Shown in pieces: positions 36,472-58,980 of a stretch of 64,000 bases of DNA. The DNA lies in the NCBI RefSeq assembly GCF_002804105.1, contig NZ_CP024964.1:186001-250000 (forward strand). The letters run 5' to 3'. The notes beneath the pieces were generated by a model. That model did no database searches. It saw nothing but the letters and a program-made list of their open reading frames with translations, and was not told the DNA's origin. The DNA is from Mesoplasma melaleucae (GTDB taxonomy: Bacteria; Bacillota_I; Bacilli_A; Mycoplasmatales; Mycoplasmataceae). The first letter of the stretch is position 1; the number at the start of each line of letters is the position of its first letter. The position numbers were made by a program, and so were the translations under genes.

Positions 36472-36521
36472 TTTTTTGCCTTCTTTCTATACAAGAAATA
36501 AGCAGTCAAACTACACTAAAA

Positions 36522-36572
36522 TAAAAAGAGCATGCGTTTAACATGCTCTTCTCTTGTTACATTAATTGTATC
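36522..36572 (-). promoter_or_regulatory. Promoter/early-terminator cassette A
   Basis: Minus-strand reading: extended -10 TGATACAAT (hexamer 36565-36570), exactly 8 bp, CAAGAG (36551-36556), then hairpin AAGAGCATG...CATGCTCTT with a T-run. It starts directly after the stop of 36575-37114 and precedes the coiled-coil gene. It is one of six matching copies (see findings). Confidence 0.7.
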
Positions 36573-36574
36573 AT

Positions 36575-37114
36575 TTAACTCATAATCATTTCATGATCAT
36601 CAATAATATCTTCATCATTTATTGAATTATTTTCAAAACTTAAATTATTTATTTCTGGGCTATCTTTTAAAGAATTATATATAGTATCATTTACATTATT
36701 TGATACTGTTTTTGTAAATAAACCAAGTTCTTCTTTATAACCTAAGAAAGTGCCATCATATTTATATACTTCTTTATCTTTGATATTAAGTAAAATATTT
36801 ATTTCTTTAGCTGTTAAATCAGATTCATAAGCTCATTCATTTTTCCCAACAATACCCTTTTCTCAAATATTTACTTTATAGTGTTTTCTACCACTAATAA
36901 TTTCATTATTCTTTCTTACTAGTATTCAATTAGAATCTTTTAAATCTCTATTAGTCAACATTTGAACCTTAAATTTAGCATTCGCTGGATTATAGCTTAG
37001 TATGCAGGCAATTCTTTTTTGTTTAGTATTCTTGTTTTTTTCAAAATCATTATCTAACGGGGACTTGACCCAAACTCATTCACCAAATTTTCATATTTTT
37101 TCTGATTTATTCAT
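36575..37114 (-). CDS. Hypothetical ICE protein, 179 aa
   Basis: 179 residues with several TGA-Trp codons (KIWKFGEWVWVKS at the start). The first 110 residues look like a small beta-rich domain (GEWVWVK and HYKVNIWEKG segments), and the tail is acidic and disordered-looking. No ribosome site lies upstream; instead a hairpin with T-run ends 12 nt before the ATG, so expression may depend on that structure. Confidence 0.6.
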
Positions 37115-37125
37115 ACATTAAATGT

Positions 37126-37151
37126 AAAAAGAGCAATTAATATTGCTCTTA
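37126..37151 (-). terminator. Hairpin with T-run immediately upstream of a start codon
   Basis: On the minus strand AAGAGCAAT/ATTGCTCTT is followed by five T, and the ATG of the 179-aa gene comes 12 nt later with no ribosome site. It resembles a regulatory attenuator more than an ordinary end. Confidence 0.65.
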
Positions 37152-37320
37152 AATACTTATGTTCATTCCTAATTTTGACTATTAGTGGTCAAAATAAAGG
37201 GGGATTCATTTTAATAAATGCACTAACCATTAAATATTAAAATGCCACGTGTTTGGAACTTCCCCAAACCTGTGTAAGACATTATTGTCTTCACTCATAA
37301 ATATTATATAGCAAATTATT
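37152..37320 (-). other. Non-coding leader with several hairpins
   Basis: Read leftward: GAAGAC-loop-GTCTT, then GTTTGG-GGAAGTT-CCAAAC, then TTAGTG pairing with CACTAA across about 40 nt, and finally the T-run hairpin at 37126-37151. No ORF. Together they resemble a structured 5' leader or small RNA of about 190 nt. Confidence 0.5.
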
Positions 37321-37352
37321 TAAAATAACATAATTGTCTCTTTTTATTTATT

Positions 37353-37847
37353 CTATAAAGTTAAACTTTCTTGGATTTCTTTAGAATCTTCCTGTTCTAA
37401 ATCTTTTTTATGATCATCTACTCATTTTTTTACTTCCTGAGTATTTGCTTTAAGAATTTTATCGAATTCAAAAAAAGAGATTTCTTCGCGAATGAATGAT
37501 TTTGTATCATTTTCTGATTTTTCTAATACTGAAATATTAATAGTTTTTGTTTCAGGCATATTTATTCTAAAGAATGATTGCTTATCAAATAGTGATGTAA
37601 CTTCTTTAAAGTATTTATTTTCATCTTTAAAATTAGGTTTTAAAGGTGTTAACATTTTTGTAGAAATAGAAATTCAAATTCTTTTTTCTTCATTATTTTT
37701 ATCTATCGTTTTAAATTCTATATTAGCTAATTCTTTTTTCTCACCATTTTCTTTTGTTATTTCATGAATTTTAGATAACTGATTTTTAAAAATGATTCCT
37801 GATGCTCAATTTGTAGAGTTCTTATCTTTTATTTGTACTTTTGACAT
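37353..37847 (-). CDS. Hypothetical ICE protein, 164 aa
   Basis: 164 residues, AGGAGG 7 nt before the ATG at 37845-37847. Charged, no membrane segment. The middle reads KEVTSLFDKQSFFRINMPE and the tail is acidic (QEDSKEIQESLTL). No family recognised. It is the first gene after cassette F. Confidence 0.65.
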
Positions 37848-37956
37848 TTTTGTCCTCCTATTTTATTCAAGAAAAGCAAGAAATAATTAAATAAGCTATT
37901 CTCCAACTTTTATTGTTTAAGAAAGGAAATTTTATGAATTTTAATATTATATTATT

Positions 37957-38014
37957 AAAAAAGAGAGAAAGCTGTATTTAACACGCTTGTCTCTCTTGAT
38001 AAATATATTATAAC
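37957..38014 (-). promoter_or_regulatory. Promoter/early-terminator cassette F
   Basis: Extended -10 TGTTATAAT (hexamer 38007-38012), 8 bp, CAAGAG (37993-37998), then a divergent form of the hairpin (AGAGA...AGC / GCT...TCTCT) with T-run. It begins just after the stop of the 442-aa gene and lies 110 bp upstream of the 164-aa gene. Confidence 0.65.
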
Positions 38015-38024
38015 ATTTTTTTAA

Positions 38025-39353
38025 TTACTTTAGCTGATTATTTACTCAATTAATATTCAAATTAGAATTTCATTCTTTTGCTTGATTATTGTTTTTTAAA
38101 TAAAGAATTGTATTACTTTTTAAAAAGTAAGAACCTTCAATAGCAGAAACTGTAATAGTTATATCATTATTTGAATTTTGTTTTATAATAATATCAAAAT
38201 CTTTTTTAAACATAGGGATATTATTTCTGTCTCCAAATGGATCAATACCTTGTTTTAAAGATTTTCCTGAAATCATTTGGTCATTTATTTGATAATTTCA
38301 CTCATCAAAATTAGTTTCTTTTCATACTTGAGTATATATATCATTAAATGCTTTTTGAATTTGAGCGTTACTTCAATTTATAAAATTTTTATCTTGTTCT
38401 GCATTTTTGATTTTAGTTAAATTATATTCATTTGAAGTCAAACTTATATTATTTAAATCAAATAAGATGGAAGATTGTTCTAATTCACTTTTTGGTTCTT
38501 GTATATTTATTGGTAATTTATTGCTAGATGCATAGCTGCTTAATTTGCTAAATAATTTTGTTGCTTTAATTAAATTATCTTTTCAATCAAATTTCGTATA
38601 TTCAGAAAAGAAAAAAGGTAAATTTTGAATATAATTTTTATTATCTTTTGACATTTCTTTTCCACCATTAAGAGTAATCGCTTTAATTCACTCTTTGCTG
38701 TTTAAATAACTTTCAATTGTTTGTGAATTTGTAATTGTTGACATTAATGCTTTATAAAAATTTAAATAATCATTAAAAATTTCAATACTTTTAATTTCAA
38801 TATTTTCAAAATCATTGTACTTAGGGTTTTCTTGAAAAATTCTATAATTATTGTAATCATAAATTGTTTTATAGTACATGTAGCTTATAAAACTTTGTGA
38901 AACTCCTAAAAGCTTAAAAAGTTGATATTCTTCATCTGTTATATCATTTTTATTAGAAATAATTTTAATTAAATCCTTTTGTGTTATTTCATATTGATTT
39001 CCAGACTTATCTGTTGTTTTTCAATTATCTCCTTGTTTAAATGACTTATATACACCATGTTCTGCAATAAGTTTAGTTTTAATAAAATCATTAAAAGTTT
39101 CTTCACTTGTAATTTCATTATCGCTGCTTGGAGTAAAATTTTTTAATATTTCATTAATGTCTTCTTTGAATTTATTTGGCTCAATTTTAAATTCAGAAGA
39201 AAAAGGTGATAAAGGTTTATATTTTTCACTAATTGAATTTTCATTGTCTTTTTTAGCTTTAACTAAAATATTATATGACGCTATCCCCCCAACTGGAATT
39301 GCAATAATTAATAAACCCACTGCAGTTATCTTAAGCATGTTTAAATATTTCAT
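38025..39353 (-). CDS. Membrane-anchored ICE protein, 442 aa
   Basis: 442 residues. One N-terminal helix (ITAVGLLIIAIPVGGIASY) anchors a large hydrophilic domain, presumably outside the cell; no lipobox Cys. The rest is Asn/Lys-rich with aromatic residues and several TGA-Trp codons. No family recognised. It follows a 43-aa Cys-rich gene within one unit (11 bp between them), ahead of cassette F. Confidence 0.7.
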
Positions 39354-39364
39354 ATTTTAAACCT

Positions 39365-39496
39365 TTAACACATATTATTTCTAATTTTGTGAGCGCAATT
39401 TAAACAAACTGTATAACTACAACTTGAAAGTGTAACTGTAGTATCTTTATTATTATGATTTTTAATACAAAAATCTATTTGCTGTTTTCTTGTCAT
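39365..39496 (-). CDS. 43-aa Cys-rich small protein
   Basis: Start at 39494-39496 with AGGAG upstream. Sequence MTRKQQIDFCIKNHN...SCSYTVCLNCAHKI; the four Cys with a His suggest a small zinc-binding knuckle. First gene after cassette B and before the 442-aa anchored protein. Confidence 0.5.
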   Translation of the reverse strand: MTRKQQIDFCIKNHNNKDTTVTLSSCSYTVCLNCAHKIRNNMC

Positions 39497-39547
39497 GTTT
39501 ATTTTCTCCTATCTTTTTTTACAATCAAAGAATAAGTTAACACAAAA

Positions 39548-39598
39548 ATAAAAAAAGCATGCGTTAACATGCTCTTCTCTTGTTACATTAATTATAAC
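39548..39598 (-). promoter_or_regulatory. Promoter/early-terminator cassette B
   Basis: Extended -10 TGTTATAAT (hexamer 39591-39596), 8 bp, CAAGAG (39577-39582), then AGCATG/CATGCT hairpin with seven T. Starts right after the stop of the 1,427-aa surface gene. Confidence 0.7.
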
Positions 39599-39609
39599 AT
39601 TAATTAGAT

Positions 39610-42600
39610 TTATTTTTTACCTAAATATTTTGACTTTCTTCGATTTAATATTCATCTTATTAAGAAAAATATAATAGCAGCACCTATTATTGATAAAGGG
39701 ATAATTCAAGCTAAATTTACTTTATCAAATTTTGGTTTAGGTTTTGGTTCTGGGTCTGGTTTTGGTTTTGGTTCTGGGTCTGGTTTTGGTTCTGGGTCTG
39801 GTTTTGGTTCTGGGTCTTTATTTAATGTTCAATATGTTACATCAATTTTTTCACCTTTAAGTTTTTTTTCACCTTTTATTGTTAAACCTATTTTAACAGA
39901 ATGATAATATCTATTTCCTTCTGCATTATTTGTTCAATTTCATTTAAAAGTAAATAAATCCTTTGTGTATTCATTTATATCTATCTGATTAATTAAGGTT
40001 AATTTATCGTAGACAGTTTGCTCTGAAACTTTTCCAATTGATGACACATTTATTATTTCACCAATATTTGTTATTTTAAATAAATCACTAAGATCAGGTC
40101 TAAATTTCTCAGGTATTTCATCAAGTTTTTCAGATGTATAGAATTTTGATATTGTTGAACCATGATACAGGTCTTTATTTGCTGATTTAACAGTGAAATT
40201 GTTTGTATAAAGCAATTCTTCAGGATTTTCTGGGTTTGGTATAGGCCTGTAACCTAAATCCTTGTAGAATAGCTCAAAATCTTTCATTTCTAACTTTTCT
40301 AAGAATGAATTTAATTTATCTGCAAATTCTGGGTCTATTGAATTTCAAGTGGTATTATTTTGTTCTTTTTGTAAAGCTATAATTTTATTTCAAAGTATTT
40401 CATTATTTTTGAATCAAATTGTTTCAGCATCTCATTCTTCAGGATTATTGTTTTTATTGTACAAATCAATAACTCCAAAATTTTTAACATTTAAAAAGGA
40501 ATTAATGTTTTTGCTTTTATCAATTGGTGGAATTGGTGGAGAAATTTCACTTTCAGGATCATTTATGTATCGTTGCTCTGTCATACCAAACAAAATATTT
40601 GATTCTTCTGTTGCTCTTACTTTCAAATTTAGTTTTTGTTTTTTATTTTCTTCAGAATTATTTATGTTTAAGAATCTAGCAATTTCATTTTGAAATTCCT
40701 CTGTATTTTGATCATAAATTTTTAATTCACCATTAATTTCTTTACTTATTGTTATATTATAATCAGTATTTAAATTAGGTTGATTAGGATTAACTAATTC
40801 AACAGCTAAATTTAATTGTTCCTTAATTAAATTCACAACTCACTTATTGGTAAATTCTTCTTGACTTTCTACGTTAGAAAAATCATAATTTTGAGTTTTT
40901 CAATTAATGTAATTTAGATTTAGCATTTTAGTAGGATTATATTCAGGGTCATTAATAATTTTAAGTCTTTTTTGTCCAACTAATTTTGTGCTATTATCAA
41001 TAGCTTTGACGGTTATTATTTCAGTTTTACGTACTTTTTCTATATCGGCAAATTCTTTTAAATACATTTCGGCATTAGTGTCAGTTAATTCAATATTATT
41101 TAAATAAATACTTCAATCTTTTCGATATTGAGCATCTGATTTATTTTTAGTTAAATAAGAATTAACTTCTTTAATTACGTAATTTTTTATTTCTGCAAAT
41201 AATTCTATTGGATTTGTACTATTTATCTTTAAAAAATCAATATCTAAACCATTTAAGTTTACTGTGCTTACTGGTTCAATTGGTGGAGAAATAGTTTGTG
41301 CTTTCATTTCTGAAACATACTGTTTTCAATATGAAAACATTCCTTCAAAACTTAACAAATCAAGTTTTGTTTGATCAAACCCATACTCATTAACAAGATA
41401 TCATTTTAAGTGTGAAGAAGCTAAAGAAAAGGTATTAGAAAACTCAGTAAATTTTTTATTACTTTGAATATCTGGTATATTTAAAAATTGCTGATAAGGT
41501 GCATCTGATTCATCTTTTGAAATATAAACAAACTTATGTAGAACATTTCCACTTTCAGCAATTATGCTTTCACCATTTGGTGGATATGTTTCAACATCTG
41601 ATGGATTAAGTTTAACCTTTTTTGGTTTCCCAGTTTCTGGATCAATGACAATGTTACCTTCATCATCAATTACAGTTTTTTTATAAATTGGAGTTTTGTC
41701 TTTTAGAAAAAATAAATATTCATAAAGTCCTTTAGTTGAAAATTGTGTTTCTTTTTCTAAATCTACTTCTTTTCTTGTTCCTATTTCATTTCCACTTTTA
41801 GAATCAATTTTGACTCTTTCAACTTTACTTATAGTATCTTTAAAGGATTTATCTAAAATATTAGCTACTCCAGAGTTTGCAACGTAAGTTTCAGCAAAAT
41901 AACCATATTCATAACTATTTTGTTCATTATCCTTTATTACATTCCCTCACTTGTCAATTGGATCAATTGGAAAAGGATTATCTTCTATGTATTTTTTAGT
42001 TGAATTAACTCATATTTTTTGAATTCTAATTCCTGTTTCAGGATCAATTGTTGGATCATATTTTGGATTATCAACAAGACTACCTTCAGCATTTGCTATT
42101 TTCTCTTGTGTTACAATTCACTGTGCATAACCCTCTTTGTTAGTTGGATCTGAATCAGGATTTCAACCTAATCATTTAAAGGTTGACCTAGAAACTTTTG
42201 ACCTAATCATAATAGTAAAATTTGTTTTAATTGGTTCAGGTTTACCATTTACATAATTTGTTCCATTTATTTCAATTTCATATTTAACTTCTTTTTGTTG
42301 ATTTTTATCATTTATTCTAGAGTCATTTAGTCTTTTTCGATAAATATTGTTATAAACTTCAATTGGTTCTCCATTAATTGTTACGCTTTCATTTCAACCT
42401 TCAAAAGTTTGGAATGAAAAATCTAAATAATTATGATAAATAAAAATTCTTTTTCTATTTTCATAAATCATTTCAGGTTGATCATCTATTAATTCACCCA
42501 TTGGGTCATCAGGATTAATCATTAAACCTGGTGATAATGAAATTCTTTCCAAGAAACTTCTTTGCAAAGCAATATCAGTTGGATTGATTTCAATAGGCAT

Positions 42601-43893
42601 TTCTACGACTTGAACTCACTGTCCATTTGCTATAAGTCCACTATCGCCTTTATCACTAAATTTAATCTGAATTTTATCCTTTGATTCATTAAAAGTTGGT
42701 GGATTCATAATTATTAAATCTTTTAATTGCGGAGATTTTGAGAATAAACTATCAAATCTGTTATTAACTTCCCTATTAATAACTTGTAAATTAGTCATAC
42801 CCTTATTAGGATTTGGTTTAATATTACCAAGAGAGTCTTGTTTATCAACTACAGTATTATTTGATGAATCTAATGATGTATTAGTTGTTAATATAAATTT
42901 TTTGTTAAATGTATCATTAATTTTTTTAGAAATACCTACGGCATCAAATTTTATTGATGTACTTATTGCATATTCTTTTGTAAAAGAATTAGCAGCACTT
43001 GAATTCTGTTTTTTATTGAACTTAACATTTACAATTCCATTTGTATCATGTGGAATTGAAATAATAGGATTGTCTAAATCAATATGAGTATTTCATAATT
43101 CATAGTTGCTTAAGGTTTTACTTCTTTTTTTGATTTCATCAATTATTAATTCTTTATTAGATTTAGGTTGATCTTCTCCTCAAATGTTAACCTTCATATT
43201 TGAATCTAATCACTTTGAAGTTTGTGATGTTATAACTAAGTCTTTTTGCATTTCTTTTGCAAAACTACTATTTTGAGATATTCAATTGTTTTTACTTACA
43301 AATTTAACTGTATTCAACTCTATTGAGGCTCTAGTTCAGTGATTAGTAAAAATATTACCCCTTACAACAATTTTTGTTTTCAAAGAAACAGAAATTTTTA
43401 AGTCAGATATTCAATTTAATTTTATGTAATATCAAGATTCATTTCTTAAATTATTTCATCCATTATCATGCCCAACTTGAATTCAAGAATTATTTATTTG
43501 GCTAAAATTAAAATTTGTATTAAAAGTTTTTGGTGTATAGTTTGCGTTTGAACCATCAAATCAAGAGCTGAAGTTAATTTCCATGTTTTTATAGTTAGTG
43601 GTTAACTGATTTCTATTTTCAGCTATTGAAGACAAATCAAGAGTAGTTGAATTTTCAATTTCTCGGTATCATTCACCACCTGGTGCATTTGCTTTCTGAT
43701 AATAAATTTCATTACTTGAAAGATTTAAATTAAAAGACTGACCAGGAAAAGTTGGGTTAATATTAGAATTTGCATAATTAGCTTTCATAAAATTATTTAC
43801 AAAGTGATTTTTGTTTGTAGTCATTGAAGTTAAAAATAAAGGACTAAATAAAAGAATTGAAGTTAATGGTACTATTCATTTTATTTTTTTCAT
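39610..43893 (-). CDS. Very large surface-exposed ICE protein with stalk and C-terminal anchor
   Basis: 1,427 residues, continuous when TGA is Trp. N-terminal signal peptide (IVPLTSILLFSPLFLTSM); a C-terminal membrane helix (AWIIPLSIIGAAIIFFLI) with basic cytoplasmic tail; and just before it a Pro-rich stalk of alternating PEPKPD/PKPK units (DNA 39731-39820). The large extracellular part shows repeated-looking Asn-rich beta modules, e.g. PIEPVSTVNLNGLDIDFLKI. This layout is that of a cell-surface adhesin or exclusion protein of conjugative elements; it resembles the mycoplasma ICE protein family Mbov_0399 in size and position. The stop codon of the 58-aa gene overlaps its ATG. Confidence 0.75.
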
Positions 43894-44069
43894 TACTCAT
43901 CAGCTCCTTTATTATTTGGTTTCTTACAATGTTTACAATTTCTCTGAAAACATTTTTTATTTTTTAATTTAGGATTTAAAGGATTTTTAATATTAACTCC
44001 TAATTGATCACCAATATTAATAACAATTGAATCAATTATTTTTTTAAATAACATAATTATTAATGACAT
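43893..44069 (-). CDS. 58-aa Cys-rich protein
   Basis: Basic C-terminus with a Cys cluster (KCFQRNCKHCKK), hydrophobic N-terminus (SLIIMLFKKIID). Its stop TAA overlaps the ATG of the large surface protein. Function unknown; probably translated as a coupled leader to the surface gene. Confidence 0.5.
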   Translation of the reverse strand: MSLIIMLFKKIIDSIVINIGDQLGVNIKNPLNPKLKNKKCFQRNCKHCKKPNNKGADE

Positions 44070-44070
44070 A

Positions 44071-44562
44071 TTATGATTCCTCCATTTCTTTCTTTTTATT
44101 AAAATTTGATATTAGATTTCTTTGTTCTGATTTAATATTTTTTGCTATCGTGTTTTGGAAAGCAAATGGTTGTAATAAACTTTCATCAGGGACTTCAACT
44201 TTTTCAGTTAAATTAAATTGTTCTGCCATTAAATTTGTTAATAAAATTAAACAAGCTTTAATTTGTGCTAAATCAATTGCTGGATCTATTAATGATTTTT
44301 TTAAAGTTAACGCATTAAAAATTTTCATATCGGAATTTTTATTATTAATAACATTTATAAATGTTTCTTCTAAATCATTTAAAATCTTTCCTTCTTTTAA
44401 GTAATTTTCAATTGTTTGTAAAAACAATGTTCTTATTTGAGAATTTATAGATTGTTTAGGAACTGATTCTTTCAAAACTGCTTTAAGAGTCATAATTAAA
44501 TCAATTTCATCTTTATTGTAAAAATCAATAAAAATTCTTGTTCTTTTTTGTTTTTTTGCCAT
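44071..44562 (-). CDS. Hypothetical ICE protein, 163 aa, first gene of the surface-protein unit
   Basis: AGAAAGG upstream of the ATG. Basic N-terminus (MAKKQKRTRIFIDFYNKDE) and a mostly helical body. The RTRIFIDFYNKDE start is weakly reminiscent of ribbon-helix-helix DNA-binding proteins found near conjugation origins, but this is only a resemblance. Stands behind cassette C. Confidence 0.55.
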   Translation of the reverse strand: MAKKQKRTRIFIDFYNKDEIDLIMTLKAVLKESVPKQSINSQIRTLFLQTIENYLKEGKILNDLEETFINVINNKNSDMKIFNALTLKKSLIDPAIDLAQIKACLILLTNLMAEQFNLTEKVEVPDESLLQPFAFQNTIAKNIKSEQRNLISNFNKKKEMEES

Positions 44563-44615
44563 TATTTTATTCCTTTCTTCAAGGAGAGTTAGTTAACTTT
44601 AAGCTATTTAAAAAA

Positions 44616-44665
44616 ATAAAAGAGCATGCGTTAACATGCTCTTCTCTTGATAATTTAATTTTACT
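44616..44665 (-). promoter_or_regulatory. Promoter/early-terminator cassette C
   Basis: -10 TAAAAT (44658-44663), 8 bp, CAAGAG (44644-44649), then AAGAGCATG/CATGCTCTT hairpin and T-run. Begins 15 bp after the stop of the OLD-type gene. Confidence 0.65.
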
Positions 44666-44676
44666 ATATTTTTTAA

Positions 44677-46110
44677 TTACTTTAAAAAATTAAAAAATAT
44701 TTCTTCTATTTCATTTACTAATTGGTTATTTCTATCGTTTAGAATTTCATCCAATAATATATTAGAACATGCTTTTTTATCAATTATAGAATTTGTGGCT
44801 TCTTGTGTTTGATTTAATATTGCTTTTTGTAATTTTAATTTATTTTTTATAAGTTTTTCAATTTCAGGTTTAGAAAAATCTAAATAGAATTCAATACATT
44901 TTCTTTTTAAACAATAAACTGTTTCGTTTATTTCAGGTTTAGTATATTTTTTATGACTTTTATCTCCATCTAAAATCTTTAAAATTGGTATTTTTGATGT
45001 TAGTAATTCTTGATTTCTTTTTAATACACGTTCAAAATTATCCGCACCATTTAATGGAATGAAAAAAACTTTTTTCTTTTTATTTTCATCAATGTTTTCA
45101 CAAAAAATATTAAGTATATGTTTATAAATATTCATGTCTTCATTACCTTCTACAAAAACAAAATATTTGGGTCCAAAACTTGAAGCTAAACTAAACGAAT
45201 CTAAAAGTATCGAATTTATTAATTCTTGATTTTTTGAGTCTGATTTATCATTTAAAAATATAAGTTCAGTTTCATCAAACTTTAAATTTATAATTATATT
45301 CATTACTATTGGAGAATGAGAAGAAATGAATATTTGTTCGTACTTACTTGCAAAAATTTTTGTAATTATACTTTCAACTTTATTTAAAGATAGATTATTT
45401 TCAATTTCATCAACTATTAATGTTGTTTTATGCAAATTTTCTTGCATACATAAAAGTGAATAAACAATACTTTTTTTTGTTCCTGAACCCATTTGGTCAA
45501 TAGATTCATGATCTGGAATTTTTGGTTTAACTACTTTATAAGATTTTGAAATATCAGATGATGAGCTTAAATTTAAATTCTTTAAAATAACATCTTTATT
45601 GTCAAATAAAAAAATATCTTCTTTTAAAAAATTAGTTGAAACATCAAAAATACTATTTTGATATGCCTTATTAAGTTTTTCATAGGCTTCATTTAGTTCT
45701 TTATCTTCATCAATTTTTTTATAAAAATAACTACCAACAATTTTGCTAACAACGTTGGTATAATCAATATTTTCTGAATCAATAAAAATAACGTTATTAG
45801 ATTCCAAAATCTTTTTAATTTTTAAATATTCTAAATCACTTTCGTAATTAATTAAAACACCTTTCTCATTAAATTCTAAATTTAGTTCTTCTTGTTCTTT
45901 AAATTTAACTTTGAATCTTGTTTTTTTCTCTTTGTCTTTAGAAAAGTAATTTAATTTTCCATTTTCGAAATAATTAAACATATCATTAATTAATTGCAGT
46001 AAAGTTGATTTACCTGAATTATTTTCACCTATAAGTAAATTTGTTCTTTTAAAATTAAAATTTTTTTCTTGTATTTTCTTATAGTTATAAACTGTTATGC
46101 TTTCTATCAT
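44677..46110 (-). CDS. OLD-family ATPase-nuclease
   Basis: 477 residues. The N-terminal ABC-type ATPase has Walker A NLLIGENNSGKSTLL, a signature-like QMGSGTKKSIVYSL and Walker B TTLIVDEIENNLS with H-loop ISSHSP. The C-terminal TOPRIM nuclease domain is marked by YFVFVEGNEDMNIY and ILKILDGDK. OLD proteins (P2 Old, GajA of Gabija) cleave DNA and act in antiphage defence; no Gabija helicase partner is adjacent. It is the last gene of the unit started by cassette D. Confidence 0.85.
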   Translation of the reverse strand: MIESITVYNYKKIQEKNFNFKRTNLLIGENNSGKSTLLQLINDMFNYFENGKLNYFSKDKEKKTRFKVKFKEQEELNLEFNEKGVLINYESDLEYLKIKKILESNNVIFIDSENIDYTNVVSKIVGSYFYKKIDEDKELNEAYEKLNKAYQNSIFDVSTNFLKEDIFLFDNKDVILKNLNLSSSSDISKSYKVVKPKIPDHESIDQMGSGTKKSIVYSLLCMQENLHKTTLIVDEIENNLSLNKVESIITKIFASKYEQIFISSHSPIVMNIIINLKFDETELIFLNDKSDSKNQELINSILLDSFSLASSFGPKYFVFVEGNEDMNIYKHILNIFCENIDENKKKKVFFIPLNGADNFERVLKRNQELLTSKIPILKILDGDKSHKKYTKPEINETVYCLKRKCIEFYLDFSKPEIEKLIKNKLKLQKAILNQTQEATNSIIDKKACSNILLDEILNDRNNQLVNEIEEIFFNFLK

Positions 46111-46155
46111 TATTAATTGCCTCTTTATTCTTATATAAAATTATACAAGAAAAAA

Positions 46156-47049
46156 CTAGATTAATTCATCTAGTAATTTTTTTGTATTTTGAGTTTCATC
46201 TTGTCGTTTTTTCATTTCTGGAAGAATTTTATGAATTGCTTCATCCATTGGAGCAAATTTTAAATTTAATCAAACATCTTTTAATGAAGCATTATATAAA
46301 GGATGTTTTTCCTTATAGTTACTTAAATTAATATTGTTATTTTTACATCAAACTTGTTCTCTAGCAATTCATTGCGGTGTTCAAGTTTCTTTTTCTCAAC
46401 CAAATTGCTCAGGATTCTCAACAAGTTCTTGTATCAATGGATCTTCAAGATTACCAGTTATTAATGCTTTAACCAAAGCGTCAGCTCTTTTAACAATTAA
46501 TTCAGACTCAATTTGAGCCATTAAAGCAGCTTTGTCATAAAGTTCTGGGTTTGCATCTAAATAGTCTACAATAGGCTTAATATTTGCTTTTCATCATTTA
46601 TCTTCAGTTCTAGGCAAATCATTAACTAATATCTGGTGTCCAAAAGAAAGTAATTCTAAAGGTCAAATATAAGGATCTTTTCTTGGTTCTTTTCATCGCT
46701 TTTCATCAGGATAACCTCTATTGTAATCATACGCATAACTTTCTCATATTGGGGTTTTTGTATACTCACATAATCAATGCTTTTCACATTTTTTATCATA
46801 TTCATTTTTCCCTGTACAATATTTCTTAAACGCTTTTAAATAAATGTCCAAATTTATATCTTCAGTTCAGAGATTTTCATTTTTAGCAAGTGCTAAATAA
46901 ACAATCCAAGTTTTTGTTCTATTGTATCGTCATAAAGTACCATAACCATATTTTTCTTCATTTAATCAAAATTTCTTTTCGTTCTCTTTAAAAGATTGAT
47001 GAAATGCTTTATCTTCCCTCTTGTTTTCCAATCACTTACCTAGTCCCAT
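46156..47049 (-). CDS. Trp-rich hypothetical protein
   Basis: 297 residues, start at 47047-47049 with AAAGGAT upstream; no membrane segment. Unusually rich in Trp (more than 20, almost all TGA), e.g. KPDWKWPLELLS-like stretches and KETWTPQWIAREQ. Function unknown. Lies between the VirB6-like membrane gene and the OLD nuclease, in one transcription unit. Confidence 0.65.
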
Positions 47050-47093
47050 ATTTTTCACATCCTTTTATATAAATATCATATCATACAAGAGTT

Positions 47094-48845
47094 TTAATAA
47101 CCTTTTTTAGCTTGTTTAGATTCTTGTTTAGCAACTTTTTCTTTTTCCTTTTTATTTTTTGATCTTTGAACATTTCTTTCATGAAGTTCCATTCTTCTTT
47201 GACGATATTTATCAGTTTCAATAATTTTTTTAAGTTTTGGTTGATCGTTTAATCTTTGTTCTGCAACTTGTTTTTGCTGTTTAAGTTGTCTATTTTCTTT
47301 CAACCTCATATCAATATTTTGAGTTTTAGGATTTTTATCATATTTTCTTTCTAAAGTGGCATTCAAGTTCATTGCTGCTTGTCGCTTTGTTTCAAACAAT
47401 GGTTTAGCATTAATTATGTTACCATCAGCATCAATTTGTCTAACACCAGATAGAACGTTACTTGCTTTTTGAATAGCACCAGTTTTAAGATTTTCTCAAC
47501 CTTTTCTAATTTTTCCTCTAGCAGCAACAGATTTATAAGATTTGTTTTTAAATTTACTTGCTGCGTATAAAGTACCAGCACCAATTCCAACTCCAGCAGC
47601 TATTTTAGCACCAATTTTAAATCTATTTTTTCAGTGTCCCAATGCATTTGTTGAAATACTTCCTTCACCAGTTGATACATCGCTTAATCCTTTACCACCC
47701 ATGCCTGGAACATTTCTACTAAGATTGCTTTTTCTTTTTATTCTATTTGCTGTATTATACATTCCTGCAGCTTTTAAACCAATGTTTGTTGCTGCCATCA
47801 TTCCAACTCCTGATGCTGTTACAACTCCTTTTGCAGCTGACATTACATCTTTATCAATTGAACGCTCACCACCTGCAAATTGTGATGCTAAACTTGGGCC
47901 AATAATTAAGAAACTTGCACCAGCTCAAATTATAACTAATAAGAATGCAATATCTACCATTGCACCAGCTCCGCTTATAACATCACTTGGGCGAATTTTA
48001 ATTAGTGTATTTAATAAAATACCAAATACTAAAAATATTGAAACTCCAATTGCCATAGATACAAATTTGTTAATAATTTGTTCTTTTCATAATTTTAAGC
48101 GTGCACCGTCATCATTTACCATTGTAGCAGCAGCTAATGGTCCTTTAATGAATAATCAAAAGATTTCAAATGATTTAACAGCCATTGAAATAATCGAAAT
48201 AGACATCCCATAAAATAATCCACACACAGCAGCAATTTCAATAAAAATATTATAATCTCCACTTAACATTTTTGATGGTGGTGCTCATAATGCAGACCCA
48301 GATCCAACTGTTACAACACCATCTCAATCCATATCTCCGATATGATATAAAATTCTAGCTATAGATGTTACTTCATTACCACCAGACAAGATAACAAACA
48401 ATGCTTGAATCATTATCATTGTAAATCCTGCAGCAATAAATATTCCAACAGGCATTAATAATGAAACAACTACACCAGTTAATGAAGCTTTTATAGCTTT
48501 AATAAGTCTTGCTTTTACTTCTAAATCATCACTTACAGAAATTGTACAATAATTTATCATAAAAAATATTACTGTAAGAGTTATTGATAAAATTCAGAAG
48601 CCAATAAATGCTGGAGGGATATTTTGCAATGAAAAGAAATTAATTTCTTTTCCATTAGCATCAACACCAAATCCAAATAATAATTGTAAAACTAAGTTTC
48701 CTGCTAAATATACAAATAATTGTTCGAATGCTTCAATGATCATCAAAGCAGGACCAATTAAAATTAATCAGATAGCAGAATATATAAATCCAAATAAACC
48801 AGATTGTAGTGCTGAGTTTATGAGATCAAATAATCAATCTAACAT
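47094..48845 (-). CDS. VirB6/TrbL-like conjugation membrane protein (Mbov_0396-like)
   Basis: 583 residues. The first ~330 hold six to seven membrane helices (IWLILIGPALMIIEAFEQLF, FIGFWILSITLTVIFFMI, GVVVSLLMPVGIFIAAGFTM, and others), as in the translocation-channel protein of type IV secretion systems. The C-terminal ~250 residues are cytoplasmic, Ala/Gly-rich then very basic coiled coil (RKEN-RQLKQQKQVAEQRLND). Position after the pilin-like gene and in the same operon as other transfer genes matches mycoplasma ICEs. Confidence 0.8.
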
Positions 48846-48892
48846 CTTCTTGTTTCCTTTCTATACTTTCTAACTAAAGCATTTTATTTATT

Positions 48893-49213
48893 TTAGGGTA
48901 TTGGAATTTCTGGTGGTTGGAATAATTGCATTCCTGTAGCCACAATAACTGTTCCAAAAAGGCCTGCTCCAAGTGATATTATTAACCCAAATACAATTCA
49001 ACCCAATTGAACAAGCATTTTCTTTTTAGCGCTTGAATCAGCATCTTCATCATTTGACAGTGCAATTATTTTTGCTCCAACACGCACAATAGCTCAAATT
49101 GAAAATGCAGCAACAGCAAAACCAACAATCATTAAGAATGATCCAAATAAATTATTAATTAGACCCATAAGTTGTGTTCAGTCAATAGTACCATCACTAG
49201 CGTATAATGTCAT
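48893..49213 (-). CDS. Pilin-like conjugation protein (Mbov_0395-like)
   Basis: 106 residues with two long hydrophobic helices (SFLMIVGFAVAAFSIWAIV; VQLGWIVFGLIISLGAGLFG), the layout of VirB2/TrbC-type pilins. Resembles the mycoplasma ICE family Mbov_0395. Promoter cassette D lies just upstream, and a ribosome site GAAGGGAG precedes the ATG at 49211-49213. Confidence 0.75.
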
Positions 49214-49289
49214 AATTAGTTTCTCCCTTCTTTCAAGGAAAAAAGTCTTGTCAAACACAACACTTATATACAATTATGAATTAACGCAA

Positions 49290-49340
49290 AAAAGAGCATG
49301 TGTTTAACATGCTCTCTTCTCTTGTTAATCTAATTATATA
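49290..49340 (-). promoter_or_regulatory. Promoter/early-terminator cassette D
   Basis: -10 TATAAT (49333-49338), 8 bp, CAAGAG (49319-49324), then AGAGCATG...CATGCTCT hairpin with a T-run. Upstream of the pilin-like gene, 30 bp after the stop of the HNH gene. Confidence 0.7.
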
Positions 49341-49369
49341 ACATAATAGTAATAATTGTTAATAATTTT

Positions 49370-49633
49370 TTATTTGTTACACATTTTGTGTACTGCTATT
49401 AAATTTTTTGATTTATTTGTTCCACCTTGTGATTTTGGATTAATATGTTCTACGTTTCATGAACTAGGATTATTTGGTTGTCATCCTTCATAAGCTCCAT
49501 ATTCCAGAATCCCGTTACATCTAAAACATTCTTTGTGGCCTCAATTACTTTCATCTTGTTGTGCTCCACAATTACATTTAGGTGCATTATTTCATGCTTG
49601 TTTAGGATTTGAATTTAAATCTTTTTTTGCCAT
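49370..49633 (-). CDS. HNH endonuclease-like zinc-finger protein
   Basis: 87 residues. Two CxxC/CNC-type knuckles (KCNCGAQQ, CFRCNG) followed by the HNH core NVEHINPKSQGGTNKSKNL...HKMC, with the His-Asn-His catalytic pattern. Starts 19 nt inside the end of the coupling-protein gene. HNH nucleases occur in many mobile elements; its target is unknown. Confidence 0.75.
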
Positions 49634-52083
49634 AAATTACCTCCTAATTCATCATATCATCCTACTATTCCTTTTGCAATTTGTTCTTCTTCTAAAACTT
49701 TATATTTCTTAATTTCTTTTTTAATTTCATTAATTTTTTTAGCATCTGGTTCATCTGCTTTTCTTAAAATGTTTAATTCTTTTTCTAATTTATTTATTGT
49801 AGATTTTAATTTACTAATTGAAAGTATTTTATTAACTTCATTTTCGTTTTCAAATTTAAGCTTTAAACCATTATAAATTTGTTTATCAACTTTGTCTAAT
49901 TTATCATTGTATTTTAATTCAGTTTTAAAACTGTCACTAAATTCTACATTTTGTTTAGTTATTGTATTTTTTTGTTTCTTAAATACATAGTTTGCTAGAT
50001 TAAAAAAATATGTTTCATCATAAATTATTGGATCAGGAATAGAACTATAACTTAATCCAGATTTAAAATTCATTAAGTTTTCTTTTTTTAATTTGTAATA
50101 ATGTTTTAATCTAGAAATTGAAGGTTGATCACCAACAAGAAGTATTACAGCTAACTCATCATCATTGCTTGTTAATTTAAACAAGTCTGAAGCTGATATT
50201 AAATCTTTTCCGGTCATTGAAGTTGCTGCCTTTTCTAAGACTTCTTTATTCTTTGAAATCGATTGCGTTAAGATAGTTTCTTTACCACATTTTTTGGCAA
50301 TCATTTCATTAATTTCTTCATTATCAGACTTTAAATAAACAGTTAATAAACAGTTAGATTTAATTGTTGTTGATGAATTGCTATATTCTTTATTAATTTG
50401 ATCCAAATCTTGAACTATTAAAGTAAAGAATATTCTTCTTGATCTAGAAACACTTAAAATATTATCAAAATTAGGTATAGCAGGCATATTACCAAATTCT
50501 TCTAATAAGAATAATAAATCCCTATCTAATTCTTCTTTTCCACGTTCAATTCTATTTTTATCTGCCACAAAAGAACAAGCTAAATATAATTGACTAACAA
50601 ATAATGAAGCTAAGGGATGTTTATCTTTTCTTTGGTCAGGAATAATTAAGAACAAAGCTGTTGGTTTTTCTTTGCTACAGATATTAAATAAATCAATATC
50701 GTTCTTGCATAAAACGTCTTGTAAAGAATCATCTGCAAATATTCTTGTCCCATTAGAAACTGCACTAAAAAATGAAGAATTTGTTGCTTCTGAACAATCT
50801 ATTTGTGATGAGCAAGTTGTTCATGCTGAACTTGTAGGAAACTCTTTTCCATACTTTTTGAATCACTCGTTTAAACTTGCTCTATTAGCCAAGATTTTTT
50901 GTACTGTAACCATATTAAAGTTTTTTTCATTTACTGCATTAAAATCTTTTTCTTTAATTTCAAGCATAGCCAATAAAACTCCTTTAATCAAATTTTTAGC
51001 ACCATTAGGTCATGTTATTTCTTTAACATCATTAGACTTAATTAAAATTTCAGTTAAATCAGTAATTTCTTGATTTGACAATGATTTAAACTTTTTTATT
51101 TGAGAAATTAAATGTTTTTTAAAAATATCAGCATCATAAATAATATATTTTTCAAATTTGTCTATTCAAAATCATTTATTTTTTGATTTATTAAAATTTT
51201 CTAAACATACTAAACAGTTTTTCTTTGTGTGATTTAAACATGAATTATTTTTAATGTAATTTTTTGTTTCTTCACTAGAACTGTTTTTAATTTTAACTTT
51301 ATGAATATTTTCCTTTTCATAGGTTATAGCAATTTCAAAATATTTTAAAGCTTGAGTTAGTGGATTTCAGCCCATAGATTGAGAAGGGTCTTTAAAATTT
51401 AATACTTTAACATCATATCCTTGTTTTTCCAAATCCATTTTTGTTGTTGCAAAAATTTCACCTTTAGGATCTGTAATTACAAAACTAGGCTTATTATTTT
51501 CATATTCTCCATTATCAAGTTTTTTGTCTTTTAATCGCGAATTCAACCAAATTGTTGGTAATATAATTTTTTGTGTTTTACCTGAACCTGTAGATCCTAT
51601 AATAATTTGATGCACAACCTTTATAACACTAATCCCATGATAAACTAACTTTTTTCCCATTATTGAAATTCTAGTTAAATAACTAGGTGTTTTAAAATCT
51701 TTGCAATAATATTTTTCAAATTCTTTTAAATCAACATTATTTGGCTTTCTTTCATCGATTATTCATTTCCCACAACCATATTCACTACTGTCTGTTTTAA
51801 TAACATGCTTGTTCTTATTTTTGCTTGTTTTTAAAAAGAAGCAGATAAATGAATAAAGTTCAAAAGCCAGTGAAATGACTAAAGACATATAAAATGAAAA
51901 TGAAATTTTAATTTTATATATTACACTAAAATTTAAAGTAAAGTTATTTGTAAATAAGTAAATAATTGAAGATATAATTATGTAACAAAAGTAATTTAAA
52001 ATAATCAAAATTATTAATGAAACAAAAATAAATAGTATTCATTTCTTTTTATTTTTTAAGTTTTCTAAAATATTTTTGAACAT
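49615..52083 (-). CDS. VirD4/TraG coupling protein (type IV secretion ATPase)
   Basis: 822 residues. Two N-terminal membrane helices (IILNYFCYIIISSIIYLF; FYMSLVISLAFELYSFICFF) anchor it; Walker A is IIGSTGSGKTQKIILP and Walker B LLFLLEEFGNMP, the TraG/VirD4 pattern. The C-terminus is a coiled coil. It pulls relaxase-bound DNA to the channel in conjugation. Follows the small membrane gene 52065-52451 with overlap. Confidence 0.9.
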
Positions 52084-52451
52084 AAAAATGTACTTAATTC
52101 TTTCTGTGGACCTGATTGATCATTAATACTTGAAAAGAAGCCTGAAGATATTCCTAAAATTATCATAATTGTTCAACATAAAATTGTGATTCCAAAAAAT
52201 ACTCAAAATTCAATTTTCAATTTTCTGTGCAATATTTTGTAATTGTTATCCAGTGAAATATTCTCTTCAATTTCAGTACTTAAACCATTATTAATATTTT
52301 TTTGTTTTTTCAAATAATTTCTTAAATTTATTTTAGTTTTTTTCATACTTCTTGTACTTTTTTTAAGTCTGCATCTTTGATATAGAAAGTATAATGTGAT
52401 ACATAGTGAGCCCATGCTTATAAAAGCAACAATTTGCATAATTTCTGTCAT
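52065..52451 (-). CDS. Small conjugation-module membrane protein (Mbov_0398-like)
   Basis: 128 residues with two helices (IVAFISMGSLCITLYFLYQ; FGITILCWTIMIILGISSG) and a basic loop. It starts after the VirB4 gene with a good ribosome site (AAAGGAG) and overlaps the coupling-protein start by 19 nt. Probably a channel component. Confidence 0.65.
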
Positions 52452-52468
52452 ATCATTTTTCTCCTTTT

Positions 52469-55210
52469 TTAAAATTCTACTTTTGCATCAATAACTGATT
52501 CTAAATCTTTTGTTACTACAAAATTAATATTGTGTGTTTCATCTGAACCAATTCTTAAAATAAATTGACCACTTTCAGCTTTTAATAAAAATTCACGTTG
52601 ACTTATTGTTAATCCACCAATTGATTTATACATTTCTTCAACTGTTTCAATATTTTGTGGCGGAGTTTTACCAACAAATACGTAAAGTGAGTTTGTTACA
52701 ATTGCCATTGTTTTTTTACTATTTTCTTTTGTTGAAAAAAAGTCTTCAAGATTTTGAGTAGCTAGCACAACTCCACCATTTCTTTTTCTAATTCTTTTAA
52801 CTAATTGGAAAATAAAATCTAAAGCTGCAGTATTTCTTTCATCAATAAGTAAATGCGCCTCATCAATTAATACCATGATTCTTTTATCGCTTAATAAAGA
52901 ATTAATTTTAACTTCATTTTGGATAACAGCAGTAATTAAAGTCATTTGAGCTTGTTGTAGATTCTTACTTTTCTCTAATAATGATTGAATGTTATATACA
53001 ATTAAGTCATTTTTATTTTTAATACTTATTACAGAAGGTCCATTATATAATTCTGAATATTTTCCAAAATCTACAAATGAATTTTCTAGCAAGTTTACTG
53101 ATTCTTCATATCCATCAGTTTGATATTTTTTATTTGCTTTTTGCTCAGTTCGAATAAATTTTATTAGATCTGTAAAAGTTGGGTATCATTCAGCTTTTTG
53201 GTCTAAAATATTTTCTACTTTTTTATATTTTGGTTGTTGATATAAATCACCTAAAGCAAAAGAAATTAAAGGTGCCATTTCATTGATGTTTCTTCTATCT
53301 CCAAATAAAATTTTTAATCAAGTTTCAAAAAATTCGATATGATACTGAATTATTTGATTTGAAGTCAAGTTATGATTTTCATCATCTATCAATTGAATTA
53401 AAGGTTGTAAAGGATTGATTCTTCCTTCTCTTCCTGTTCCTGCATCAATTACTATGCCGCCATATTTTCTTGCCATGCTTGAGTATTCATTTTCAGGATC
53501 AATAGCTCTAACTATTCCCCCTTTAGCTAAATGACCGTTCATTAAAACCTTAAGTGCTGTAGTTTTACCTGCACCTGAAAATCCGGTTAAAAATGCATTA
53601 TGATTCATTCTACTTCTTGTTTTAACAAAAGTATCTAAAACTACAACATCTTGTAATTCATTATTACCTAATGGTGTTCCTTCTTCATCTCTTAAATCTG
53701 ATGATAAAAATGGAAAAGATTCAGCAAGGGCAAGCGTTGGTGTATAAGTTGCATATTTAGCCCCATATTCATCAGTTGGCTTGATAATAGCACCTGAAAA
53801 TCCTTCTAGTTGATTAAAAGTCATATCATCAATAAGTATTCTTTCATTCTTTAATGTTTTTCTTAACATTTGATTATATTCTTGGAGTTGTTTTAAATTA
53901 TTAGAATAAGAAATGATGTATGTATTAATTTTTTTTATCTTTTCATTTCCGCTTGCTAAATCATCGATTAATTCTCAAATAAGTTCTGCATCTTTTTCTT
54001 GAGAAGACTTACCAATCAAGTCTTTTTTAGAATGAGTTACAATGTTTGAATTTAAAACTTGCAATTGATTAGATAATTTCTTTGAAATATCTTCTTTGAA
54101 TATGTCATTGATATTTATAACAAAATTTGAATTTGAATATACTAGACTTGCTAGTCAACTTCTTGTTGGAAAATTTGGATATTGCTTAATATTTGAAATA
54201 TTCAAATAAAGTTTGTTTAAATCTTTATCATTATTTGCACATAAATATTTTCCATTAACTTTTAAATCATTAAATGCTAAAAGTTTATCTAGGTCATTTC
54301 TATGATCCATTATTTCTTGATCAGTTAATTTTGGGTGCATTGGATTTACTAAGCCAAGATATACATTTACAAGTTCACATGCATTTATGTGCTCTGCTTT
54401 TAACTTAACAGTTGAAGCTGCTTGCATAAGTTCATAAATGTTTTTCATCAATTTCTTTTTGATAGTTGAATAAATAACAAAATAAAATTCTTTATCTAAG
54501 TTATCACTTGATAAGTAACTTCCTTCTTTTTCATGTAAATTTATAAATCCCTGAATTTGTTCTTTACGAGTTTGGTATTGAATATCAGTGTATTCTTTTT
54601 TGTTTTTTTCTAATAACTCAAGTTTTCTTTTTCAAAACTTTTTATTAGCTTGTAAATCTAATGGTCTATCAACTTTAATTAATGACATATTGCTTTCAAT
54701 ATTCATAAATAAGTTTTGCATGTTATTTATCAATAAATTTTGTTCTTCTTCTGAAAATCTAAATAAATCATACCCAACTATTTTTACAGCTGATGCCATA
54801 AATGGTTTTCCACCAACACTAGATTTTGTTAAAACAAATTTAGAAATGTCATTTCCATCATCGATAATTTTTTTAAATGAAACTAAATTTTTTGTGTCAT
54901 TACTAGTATTAATTTTAAACTTCTTAATTTCAGAACTGAATTTAAATGTCTTTCAAATAACTTGATAAACTCTTAAATTTCTTCCAACTTTAGTTGGTAA
55001 CAACATACTAAATAATCCAAAAAATACAATTATTCCAACAAATATTTGTCCTATTATTCCTAAAATAGATAATGTAAATACAAATATTAAAGCAACTATT
55101 AAAAATACAAAGCAAAATAATAGATCGTACATTGTAAATCAATTATTATTTTTACTCATTTTAATAACGTTATTTAATGTTTTTGGTATATAAGCTCTTT
55201 TTCTACTCAT
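52469..55210 (-). CDS. VirB4/TraE conjugation ATPase (Mbov_0397-like)
   Basis: 913 residues. Two or three N-terminal membrane helices (LLFCFVFLIVALIFVFTLS; IFVGIIVFFGLFSMLL), then a helical middle, then the RecA-like motor: Walker A FLTGFSGAGKTTALKVL, IDPENEYSSM, Walker B IMVLIDEAHLLIDE, and VLATQNLEDF (Q motif). VirB4-type motors power pilus assembly and DNA transfer. Cassette E precedes it; the ribosome site is AAGGAGAG. Confidence 0.9.
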
Positions 55211-55278
55211 GTTTTCTCTCCTTTTCTTAAAATCAAGCAGAAAAACATTGTTAAACTTTAAACACATTCAAAACAAAA

Positions 55279-55329
55279 TAAAAAGAACATGTGTTTAACA
55301 TGCTCTTCTCTTGTTAATATTATTATAAC
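55279..55329 (-). promoter_or_regulatory. Promoter/early-terminator cassette E
   Basis: Extended -10 TGTTATAAT (hexamer 55322-55327), 8 bp, CAAGAG (55308-55313), then AAGAGCATG..CATGTTCTT-type hairpin and T-run. It starts 27 bp after the stop of the 35-aa gene and precedes the VirB4 gene by 70 bp. Confidence 0.7.
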
Positions 55330-58979: not shown

Positions 58980-58980
58980 T

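Follow-up and report, generated by a model that had tools for sequence, protein, structure and literature searches.

Background

Gene expression in Tn916, an integrative and conjugative element (ICE), has been described as silenced by terminators, and its antiterminator canT is most likely an RNA acting in cis, of which 341- and 452-nt versions were active (PMC11658703). In plasmids of the pLS20 type, conAn lies at the start of one long operon and was reported to be bipartite, being composed of the protein ConAn1 and the RNA conAn2 (PMC8955417). A putative site between the -35 and -10 boxes was assigned to AlpA, and at alpB 54 nt separate the transcription start from the beginning of the terminator (PMC7969949). 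For ICEA, noncoding regions were reported to be needed for transfer, and one hairpin motif was described in a noncoding region (PMC6030558). The present analysis deals with an element of this conjugative kind in Mesoplasma melaleucae, contained in a 64,000-nt stretch of DNA (hereafter the window; positions 186,001-250,000 of the 845,295-bp genome, contig NZ_CP024964.1), where six minus-strand cassettes, each made of a promoter and an immediately following terminator-like hairpin, precede the conjugation operons. In leader attenuators of the trp, pyrG and T-box types, one RNA segment takes part in mutually exclusive pairings, one of which is a terminator. To our knowledge, no described system has repeated promoter-stop units sharing both a code that begins at +1 and a downstream segment (D, see below) complementary to it. 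In the open-access literature, no title or abstract opening was found to describe such cassettes, subscription journals lying mostly outside this coverage.

What emerges from the sequences is a group of attenuator-like leaders, each specific to the element that carries it, within the conjugative elements of a single mollicute family; this group is larger than first reported. Their shared layout, combined with codes proper to the elements, suggests an undescribed element-wide RNA switch, and on balance we favour the view that the cassettes form an element-wide attenuator regulon. The promoter register, the hairpin with its U-run, the pairing of the RNA 5' end with segment D and its co-variation, the recurrence of this architecture and the element-specific codes can be read in the sequences themselves; from these, we infer termination, regulated read-through, a factor governing it and a role for the P:D helix.

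Structure of the cassettes

The six cassettes were checked base by base. The -10 hexamers announced by an earlier note on this DNA were found at all six minus-strand sites (36565, 38007, 39591, 44658, 49333 and 55322), four of them with the TGn extension it had reported (36565, 38007, 39591 and 55322), and the distance from hexamer to the word CAAGAG was exactly 8 bp in each case, as claimed. The hairpin lies very early in the predicted RNA, its U-run ending near +40. The start codon (picked by eye, aided by a Shine-Dalgarno-like word) follows the U-run at a distance of 46-109 nt, close to the 50-110 given previously. The proximity of the cassettes to upstream stop codons was only partly borne out: five of the six -10 boxes start at about 5-32 bp from the stop, whereas that at 55322 sits about 142 bp below the stop of open reading frame (ORF) 55470-55943.

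Over the whole genome, the pattern TANNNT-N8-CAAGAGA had 12 matches, corresponding to the six cassettes and six sites outside the window. A search for the hairpin word AAGAGCATGTTAANNNCATG with at most 3 mismatches, which is blind to cassettes whose loop is shorter or whose stem diverges, returned 6 matches. Four were at cassettes, one of them in opposite orientation, and the 2 located elsewhere had 3 mismatches each. The six RNAs fold at -14.1 to -17.3 kcal/mol (z from -5.2 to -6.35; 0 of 200 shuffles as good in each case), and all six hairpins display the GC-bearing stem and the U-run immediately behind it that characterize intrinsic terminators. A terminator scan of the 28-46 kb stretch yielded 15 terminator-like sites for 2.3 expected, including three of the four cassettes located there. 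When the window was scanned with Rfam 15, only rRNA and tRNA were detected, no family reaching its gathering score at the cassettes. The six cassettes are genuine and not products of chance.

Forty-five cassettes from nine elements (the window element and eight others, designated below by the handles of their genomes) were compared. Within elements, pairwise identity was background-like between -40 and -18 (0.35-0.47), ranged from 0.17 to 1.00 for the TG, from 0.84 to 1.00 for the -10 box and from 0.57 to 1.00 for -6 to -1, and reached 0.87-1.00 for +1 to +12. The conserved block follows the -10 box after six nucleotides, invariably across the nine elements, and the predicted +1 is A or G. Promoters mapped in Mesoplasma florum were described as having a TAWAAT box, a partial TGN and no clear -35 box, transcription beginning in most cases 6 or 7 nt further on and at an A in about 70% (PMC7745072). 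The cassettes share these features of promoters of the main Mollicute sigma factor, with the -10 variants TATACT or TATTAT in G034a, G004 and G045. Because the cassette spacing fits the mapped M. florum starts, the conserved block is best read as RNA beginning at +1. The same study reported that no Rho homologue was detected in Mollicutes (PMC7745072).

The view of the earlier note that promoter and immediate terminator make up one unit thus received support from the nine elements, all of which have the -10 box in register, followed six nucleotides later by the conserved block, and in which the unit often recurs at corresponding operons. Absence of -10 conservation in related elements, which the note had named as a refutation, was not encountered in any of the nine. 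In the control stretches (20 stretches of 20 kb, 400 kb in total, from 10 of the same genomes), no repeated hairpin family with a -10 box in register was recognised by eye.

A second partner for the RNA 5' end

The RNA 5' end (segment P) can pair either with the 3' arm of the terminator (T) or with a further segment (D), complementary to P and located between the U-run and the start codon. The leaders can accordingly form two mutually exclusive pairings, P:T and P:D, one of which is a terminator, as expected of an attenuator. Segment D had been overlooked in the earlier interpretation, which is supported with regard to the promoter-terminator unit; a single element-wide switch is made likely by the near-identity of P within each element.

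In the window, all parts lie on the minus strand, and arms T were located by folding. Cassette 1 has its TGn and -10 box (TGATACAAT; sequence check and register alignment) at 36565..36573, P at 36535..36558 from a predicted +1 at 36558, T with its U-run at 36518..36534 (also found by the terminator scan) and D at 36491..36512, antisense to P and about 20 nt 5' of the start of ORF 36049-36471 (P:D -21.1 kcal/mol, p=0.002). In cassette 2, the TGn and -10 box (TGTTATAAT) at 38007..38015 are followed by the most divergent copy of P (37975..38000, +1 at 38000), by T and U-run in a bulged stem (37957..37974) and by an antisense D at 37867..37894, before ORF 37353-37847 (P:D -14.8, p=0.012). Cassette 3 comprises the TGn and -10 box (39591..39599), P (39562..39584, +1 at 39584), T and U-run (39544..39561) and an antisense D (39521..39542; P:D -13.5, p=0.002); the next start is at 39496 (43-aa ORF), before ORF 38025-39353. 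The -10 box TAAAAT of cassette 4, without TGn, lies at 44658..44666, P at 44629..44651 (+1 at 44651), T and U-run at 44610..44628 and D at 44579..44598 (P:D -14.3, p=0.004), ahead of ORF 44071-44562 and then of a 1427-aa protein read as surface-type (39610-43893). Cassette 5, with TATAAT and a TG out of register at 49333..49341, has P at 49301..49326 (+1 at 49326), T and U-run at 49288..49300 and D at 49233..49258, before ORFs 48893-49213 and 47094-48845 (P:D -21.6, p=0.002). In cassette 6, the TGn and -10 box (55322..55330), P (55292..55315, +1 at 55315), T and U-run (55275..55291) and D (55233..55257; P:D -22.5, p=0.002) precede the TraE/VirB4-like ORF, which starts at 55210.

Pairing of P with D was better than in dinucleotide shuffles (p<0.05) in 37 of the 43 leaders considered, L036:2153 and L042:4932 having been left out of the 45; leaders of one element are related and hence do not represent independent samples. 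A first set gave 24/30 (window 6/6, G058 5/7, G057 2/2, G034b 5/5, G042 2/2, G004 4/4, G023 0/4) and a second one 13/13 (7 leaders of G034a, 3 of G045 and 3 of G042). With G023 excluded, pairing starts at RNA nucleotide 2-3 in 37 of 39 leaders (P of the window element having been entered from +3), and the median distance from the end of D to the start codon is 23 nt (range 4-43). P and D vary together: in the window, for instance, GTTAAC in P goes with GTTAAC in D in two leaders, and GTTAAAC in P with GTTTAAC or GTTTGAC in D in three. Only 4 of the 720 possible reassignments of D to P in the window element were as good as the real one, which is included in this count, two P being identical; between elements, none of 20,000 reassignments was as good. 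Complementarity of P and D also exists between different cassettes of one element, cross-matches that cis pairing explains equally well. Among the upstream regions of other genes, pairing with P at or below the cassette median was found in 0/57 in the window and 1/206 in six other elements, 70-nt stretches being compared here with up to 100 nt for cassettes.

Within elements, mean pairwise identity of the initial 18 nt of P (as entered) was 0.85-1.00; that of T was 0.74-1.00, that of D 0.61-1.00 and that of the interval separating D from the start codon 0.40-0.74. P was more conserved than D in 7/9 elements (not in G057, n=2, nor in G023) and more conserved than T in 7/9 (not in G057 and G034a). 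The hairpin and P:D states are close in energy, as in a switch.

Two other roles of D were considered and abandoned. Sequestration of the ribosome site was suggested by whole-leader folds, and a shuffle test gave it no general support (Fisher p 0.44 for the window, 0.73 for G034a, 0.21 for G004, 0.80 for G023, 0.09 for G034b and 0.06 for G057; lower values of 0.003, 0.015 and 0.034 for G045, G042 and G058, respectively). A back-up terminator formed by P:D was dropped on inspection of the leaders, some D having a U-run and others only a short pairing before one.

Distribution among related elements

Homologues of TraG were detected in 23 of 60 family genomes by single-protein search and in 77 of the 320 genomes of the order by profile at E 1e-30. 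From 43 of these 77 genomes, 45 element regions were compared (the window and 44 others, several of them short contigs), 17 within the bacterial family of the window (f1) and 28 outside it (18 in f7, 4 in f8 and 6 in f11). Promoter-hairpin families were recognised in 9 of the 17 f1 regions, namely the window element, G058, G057, G034a, G034b, G042, G045, G004 and G023; which repeated hairpin families have a -10 box in register was judged by eye. These nine elements carry the 45 cassettes and seven different sequence codes, G034b sharing its code with G042 and G034a with G045. The count omits at least two G058 and two G034a cassettes known from whole-genome searches, as well as a hairpin pair of G003. 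Hairpins of the G023 type were also present in G013 and G026, and three cassettes of the G034a type in G040, outside the 45 regions.

Corresponding operons carry the same layout, mostly with different codes. A cassette stands directly before traE in the window element, G058, G057, G034a, G034b and G042, and before the gene pair resembling 48893-49213 and 47094-48845 in the window element, G058 and G057. The operon encoding the large surface-type protein is preceded by a cassette in the window element, G058, G034b, G042 and G004.

The codes are largely confined to their elements. All ten G058 cassettes are on one strand between 585.4 and 617.4 kb, without any other match in that genome at up to 3 mismatches. 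Genome G034 holds two elements with two codes, with 6 cassettes at 240-260 kb and 9 at 1,096-1,119 kb (one with 1 mismatch). A single extra code match, at 572 kb in G042, adjoins remnants of a G034a-type element, and matches with 2 mismatches occurred in G045, G027 and G040. A covariance model of the window cassettes had matches in 14/60 family genomes at E<=0.1, the best beyond the six own and nine G058 cassettes being in G003 (1e-5) and G055 (2e-5). The G055 match, a relic of cassette 5 in which one stem pair has changed from G-C to A-U, adjoins fragments 69-79% identical to proteins of the window element, from which it follows that a sister element once resided in that genome.

A strict scan for the P-T-D layout gave 115 matches in 1.63 Mb of element regions, window included, for 10 in 0.40 Mb of controls, many single matches being due to chance; of the 11 matches in the window, 6 are the cassettes. 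A looser first scan was dropped, as controls matched often (0.67-5 per 20 kb among the matches listed). Scanning of contigs bearing TraG relatives gave 80 loci, mostly from Clostridia and other metagenome-assembled genomes (MAGs), with a cassette family only in L056, from Williamsoniiplasma lucivorax (ATCC 49196; two cassettes on contig NZ_JADH01000019.1); the cassettes of this contig and those of one G057 contig are the same set. Relatives of the window TraG (loci L057-L135) were found in many MAGs of Clostridia, Christensenella, Acholeplasmatales and Onthoplasma.

Several further hairpins were noted along the way. Repeated hairpin pairs without an in-register -10 box occur in several regions outside the family and in controls of G058, G034 and G042; outside the family, those of L185 (G311), L212 (G162) and L199 (G157) have conserved upstream blocks and no clear -10 box. 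Beside the four G004 cassettes, L050:12364 (plus strand) is another unit of -10 box, hairpin, T-run and complement with a different code (AGTTTTAGAGACAGG...). A similar hairpin pair with T-runs, at least one of them behind TATAAT, lies near 11711 and 18087 of L053 (G003) and may represent another code with the same architecture; three TraG places with identical scores near 21, 365 and 432 kb of G003:C1 suggest three copies of one element. In G034a and G045 (L039/L040 and L043/L044), D lies within a second hairpin with a U-run, which may give two tandem stops, and most of these leaders also have a TTTTCCCTGGGGAAA hairpin before the start codon.

Interpretation and alternative explanations

In the element-wide attenuator regulon that we favour, RNA polymerase would start at +1 (A or G), six nucleotides past the -10 box. 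The first 20-35 nt of the RNA, P, would pair with arm T once T emerges, and transcription would stop at about +36 to +54 with release of a short RNA. The conjugation module would be nearly silent by default, its expression requiring read-through, and an element-specific factor (protein or RNA) would read P in the nascent RNA and open the operons together. Read-through RNA would include D, which could take P from T by pairing from nucleotide 2-3 through the loop; the resulting 5' helix, whose end lies a median 23 nt ahead of the start codon, would hide the mRNA 5' end. A common reader of P in the cell, either a protein or a D-bearing RNA, is postulated because P is alike across cassettes, where pairing in cis alone would allow drift. 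Recent copying of cassettes is an alternative for elements whose T and D are also alike.

A number of observations weigh against this interpretation. D is made only after T and therefore cannot prevent termination in cis; an alternative helix before the terminator was not found, D lying 3' of T in the leaders examined. Folding of whole leaders gave the hairpin state an advantage of a median 2.9 kcal/mol over P:D, which was favoured in 11/39. The four G023 leaders have only a short P:D match, no better than shuffles, and two of the seven G058 leaders do not reach p<0.05. The own D is not favoured in G042 (24/120 reassignments as good), G004 (12/24) and G034a (1416/5040), and for 5/57 other genes of the window, pairing with P equals or surpasses that of the weakest cassette. 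T is as conserved as P in G057 and G034a, and so is D in G057 and G023. The G055 relic has retained its hairpin with a poor P:D pairing. Elements can do without the cassettes, no promoter-hairpin family having been recognised in the 28 regions outside f1 or in 6 of the 17 inside it. Finally, the searches described below established no factor acting in trans.

Among the alternatives, a constitutive role as insulator or stabiliser has a modest chance of being correct: leaky terminators would set a low expression level and P:D would guard the mRNA 5' end, without any regulated switch. The start of P:D at nucleotide 2-3 in nearly all leaders, where the hairpin mostly leaves 4-7 nt free, agrees with such a guard, but this explanation does not account for the first 18 nt of P being 85-100% identical within each element while D mostly varies more.

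It is rather unlikely that P, or a palindrome spanning +1 to +30, is an operator bound as double-stranded DNA by a repressor of the element, the hairpin being incidental. A fixed position relative to the promoter and an element-specific sequence would suit a repressor, and candidates could be seen in ORF 55470-55943, with its weak match (E 5e-4) to an Arc-like regulator family, and in ORF 44071-44562, which we read as ribbon-helix-helix. However, one or more G-U pairs are present in 27 of the 45 predicted stems, and 30 of the 45 have a bulge or internal loop, which argues against a DNA palindrome. Some of the G-U pairs are situated at the base of the stem, opposite the U-run, but others occur within its core (39591, 55322 and all G058 copies). 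In G034b and G042, P is near-invariant over ten leaders (the eleventh, L042:4932, having been left out), and T differs in several ways and still pairs with it. An operator would also leave aside the complementarity to P of a segment usually located 15-43 nt before the start codon.

We consider it distinctly improbable that the short terminated RNA is itself the product, its P pairing in trans with D near the ribosome site and silencing the genes in the manner of the RNA-based self-immunity of phage P4. P is common within an element, the leaders carry D, the codes differ even within one genome, and the hairpin RNA would have both its 5' tail and its loop available for pairing. Nevertheless, every mRNA bearing D has a P nearby in cis that should outcompete an RNA acting in trans, and pairing of D with the ribosome-binding region was not generally better than in shuffles.

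That the hairpins merely end upstream operons, the -10 words being fortuitous or belonging to an unrelated promoter, would suit the position of most cassettes just behind stop codons, where hairpins would also block read-in, but is very hard to reconcile with a -10 box in fixed register and a block conserved from +1 between background-like flanks in 9/9 elements, or with controls in which hairpin families lacked such a box (by eye, 20 stretches) and the strict scan found 10 single matches.

The favoured element-wide attenuator regulon can also be conceived in an RNA-only version, which we hold to be quite unlikely. Antitermination would then be self-amplifying and dispense with a protein regulator: D on a read-through mRNA would be free, since its own P would stay in the usually more stable hairpin, and could catch in trans, ahead of the synthesis of T, a P emerging from whichever cassette of that element, each escape yielding more D. 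Such a private all-or-none switch would make the P/D code comparable to an incompatibility group.

Search for a trans-acting factor

The earlier note had suggested looking for a NusG/LoaP-like or RNA-binding antiterminator. Searches of 10 genomes, 8 of which bear cassettes, gave a single NusG per genome, located away from the elements and without paralogue, which speaks against a LoaP-type factor. The unconserved -40 to -18 interval likewise speaks against a site upstream of the -10 box, as for Q or AlpA, and no conserved one was found there. No antiterminator was present among the Pfam and PHROG matches obtained, models of ConAn1 or canT not being among those searched and RNA antiterminators falling outside such a search.

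A natural place for the factor would be the cassette-free operon upstream of cassette 6. There, the ASCH-like protein encoded at 61043..61504 (minus strand; Pfam matches below cut-off) is a weak lead. ASCH domains have a PUA-type fold. Homologues were found in the cassette-bearing G004, G034a and G058 and in the G034a-type relic of G042; none was detected in the remaining element regions, which lack part of their flanks, and one weak match came from a control (E 0.025, L243).

A free-standing antisense RNA was discarded as a candidate, no dedicated anti-P locus having stood out when P was compared with both strands of the window. The best matches include the opposite strands of the cassettes themselves, T arms and D segments; the strongest other match (-23.0 kcal/mol, at 15110 on the minus strand) lies outside the element, whose plus strand contains weaker matches, reaching about -17.8 kcal/mol.

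Gene content of the element and its surroundings

The genes behind the cassettes correspond to a conjugation module. The TraE/VirB4-like ATPase (52469..55210, minus strand; Pfam HerA_C, E 2e-6; homologues in related elements) is the first gene behind cassette 6 and shares its operon with the TraG-like coupling protein (49615..52083, minus strand; T4SS-DNA_transf, E 1.6e-32). We read 48893-49213 as pilin-like, 47094-48845 as VirB6-like and, as said, 39610-43893 as surface-type, these three labels not being derived from family matches. A UPF0236-family transposase-like ORF lies near one element end (34451..35659, minus strand; PF06782, E 8e-30), with homologues in 5 of 12 other element regions compared. 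TraG, TraE/VirB4 and a transposase-type gene are together typical of Mycoplasma-type ICEs. The stretch of cassette 5 further contains an AAA_21/OLD-type ATPase (44677-46110, minus strand), possibly a cargo defence gene.

Upstream, from about 55,470 to 63,900, the cassette-free part comprises methylase and restriction genes, a DnaC-like loader and weak, below-cut-off matches to HU-like and ASCH families. The 157-aa product of ORF 55470-55943 (minus strand), the last gene before the first cassette to be met in the direction of transcription, is acidic and coil-like, so that its Arc-like match may be false. At the other side, 28126-35659 adjoins the element with RecT, VRR-NUC, KAP-NTPase and UPF0236 transposase-like genes and looks like a neighbouring or remnant mobile element. 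At about 29990-30070 (minus strand), a TATAAT -10 box, a long hairpin and a T-run precede ORF 29623-29958, with a sequence unrelated to the six cassettes.

Comparison with known systems

Wall-less bacteria have few transcription factors, which raises the question of how their large conjugative elements stay silent and then switch on many operons together. The leaders described here, repeated within an element, bearing its specific code and built of three segments related to one another, provide a concrete answer that can be put to the test, and their signature allows such elements, co-resident ones included, to be delimited, typed and counted. Should RNA alone prove to read P, the leaders would represent a genetic switch of a new kind, as well as a compact circuit part for minimal cells.

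The window element resembles Mycoplasma ICEs of the ICEA type in its TraG/TraE module, surface protein and transposase-type mobility gene (PMC6030558, together with general knowledge of ICE gene content). Comparable cassettes were not recognised in the 18 ICE regions of family f7. From attenuators of the trp, pyrG and T-box types, the cassettes differ in that partner D lies downstream of the terminator and is no ordinary cis antiterminator. Like the targets of AlpA and lambda Q, as described, they have an intrinsic terminator between the promoter and the first gene, and one factor would serve more than one locus; the cassette code, however, runs from +1 onward, with an unconserved -40 to -18 interval. 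Similarity to conAn concerns conjugation genes, many intrinsic terminators and antitermination encoded by the element, but the published description of pLS20-type plasmids involves one main promoter, whereas each cassette operon of the window element has its own promoter-terminator unit. The same principle links the cassettes with Tn916 and canT, ICE genes being kept silent by terminators so that antitermination is required; Tn916 is described as relying on one long processive antiterminator, whereas in the cassettes the promoters are numerous and each is followed by a stop of its own, within about 36-54 nt.

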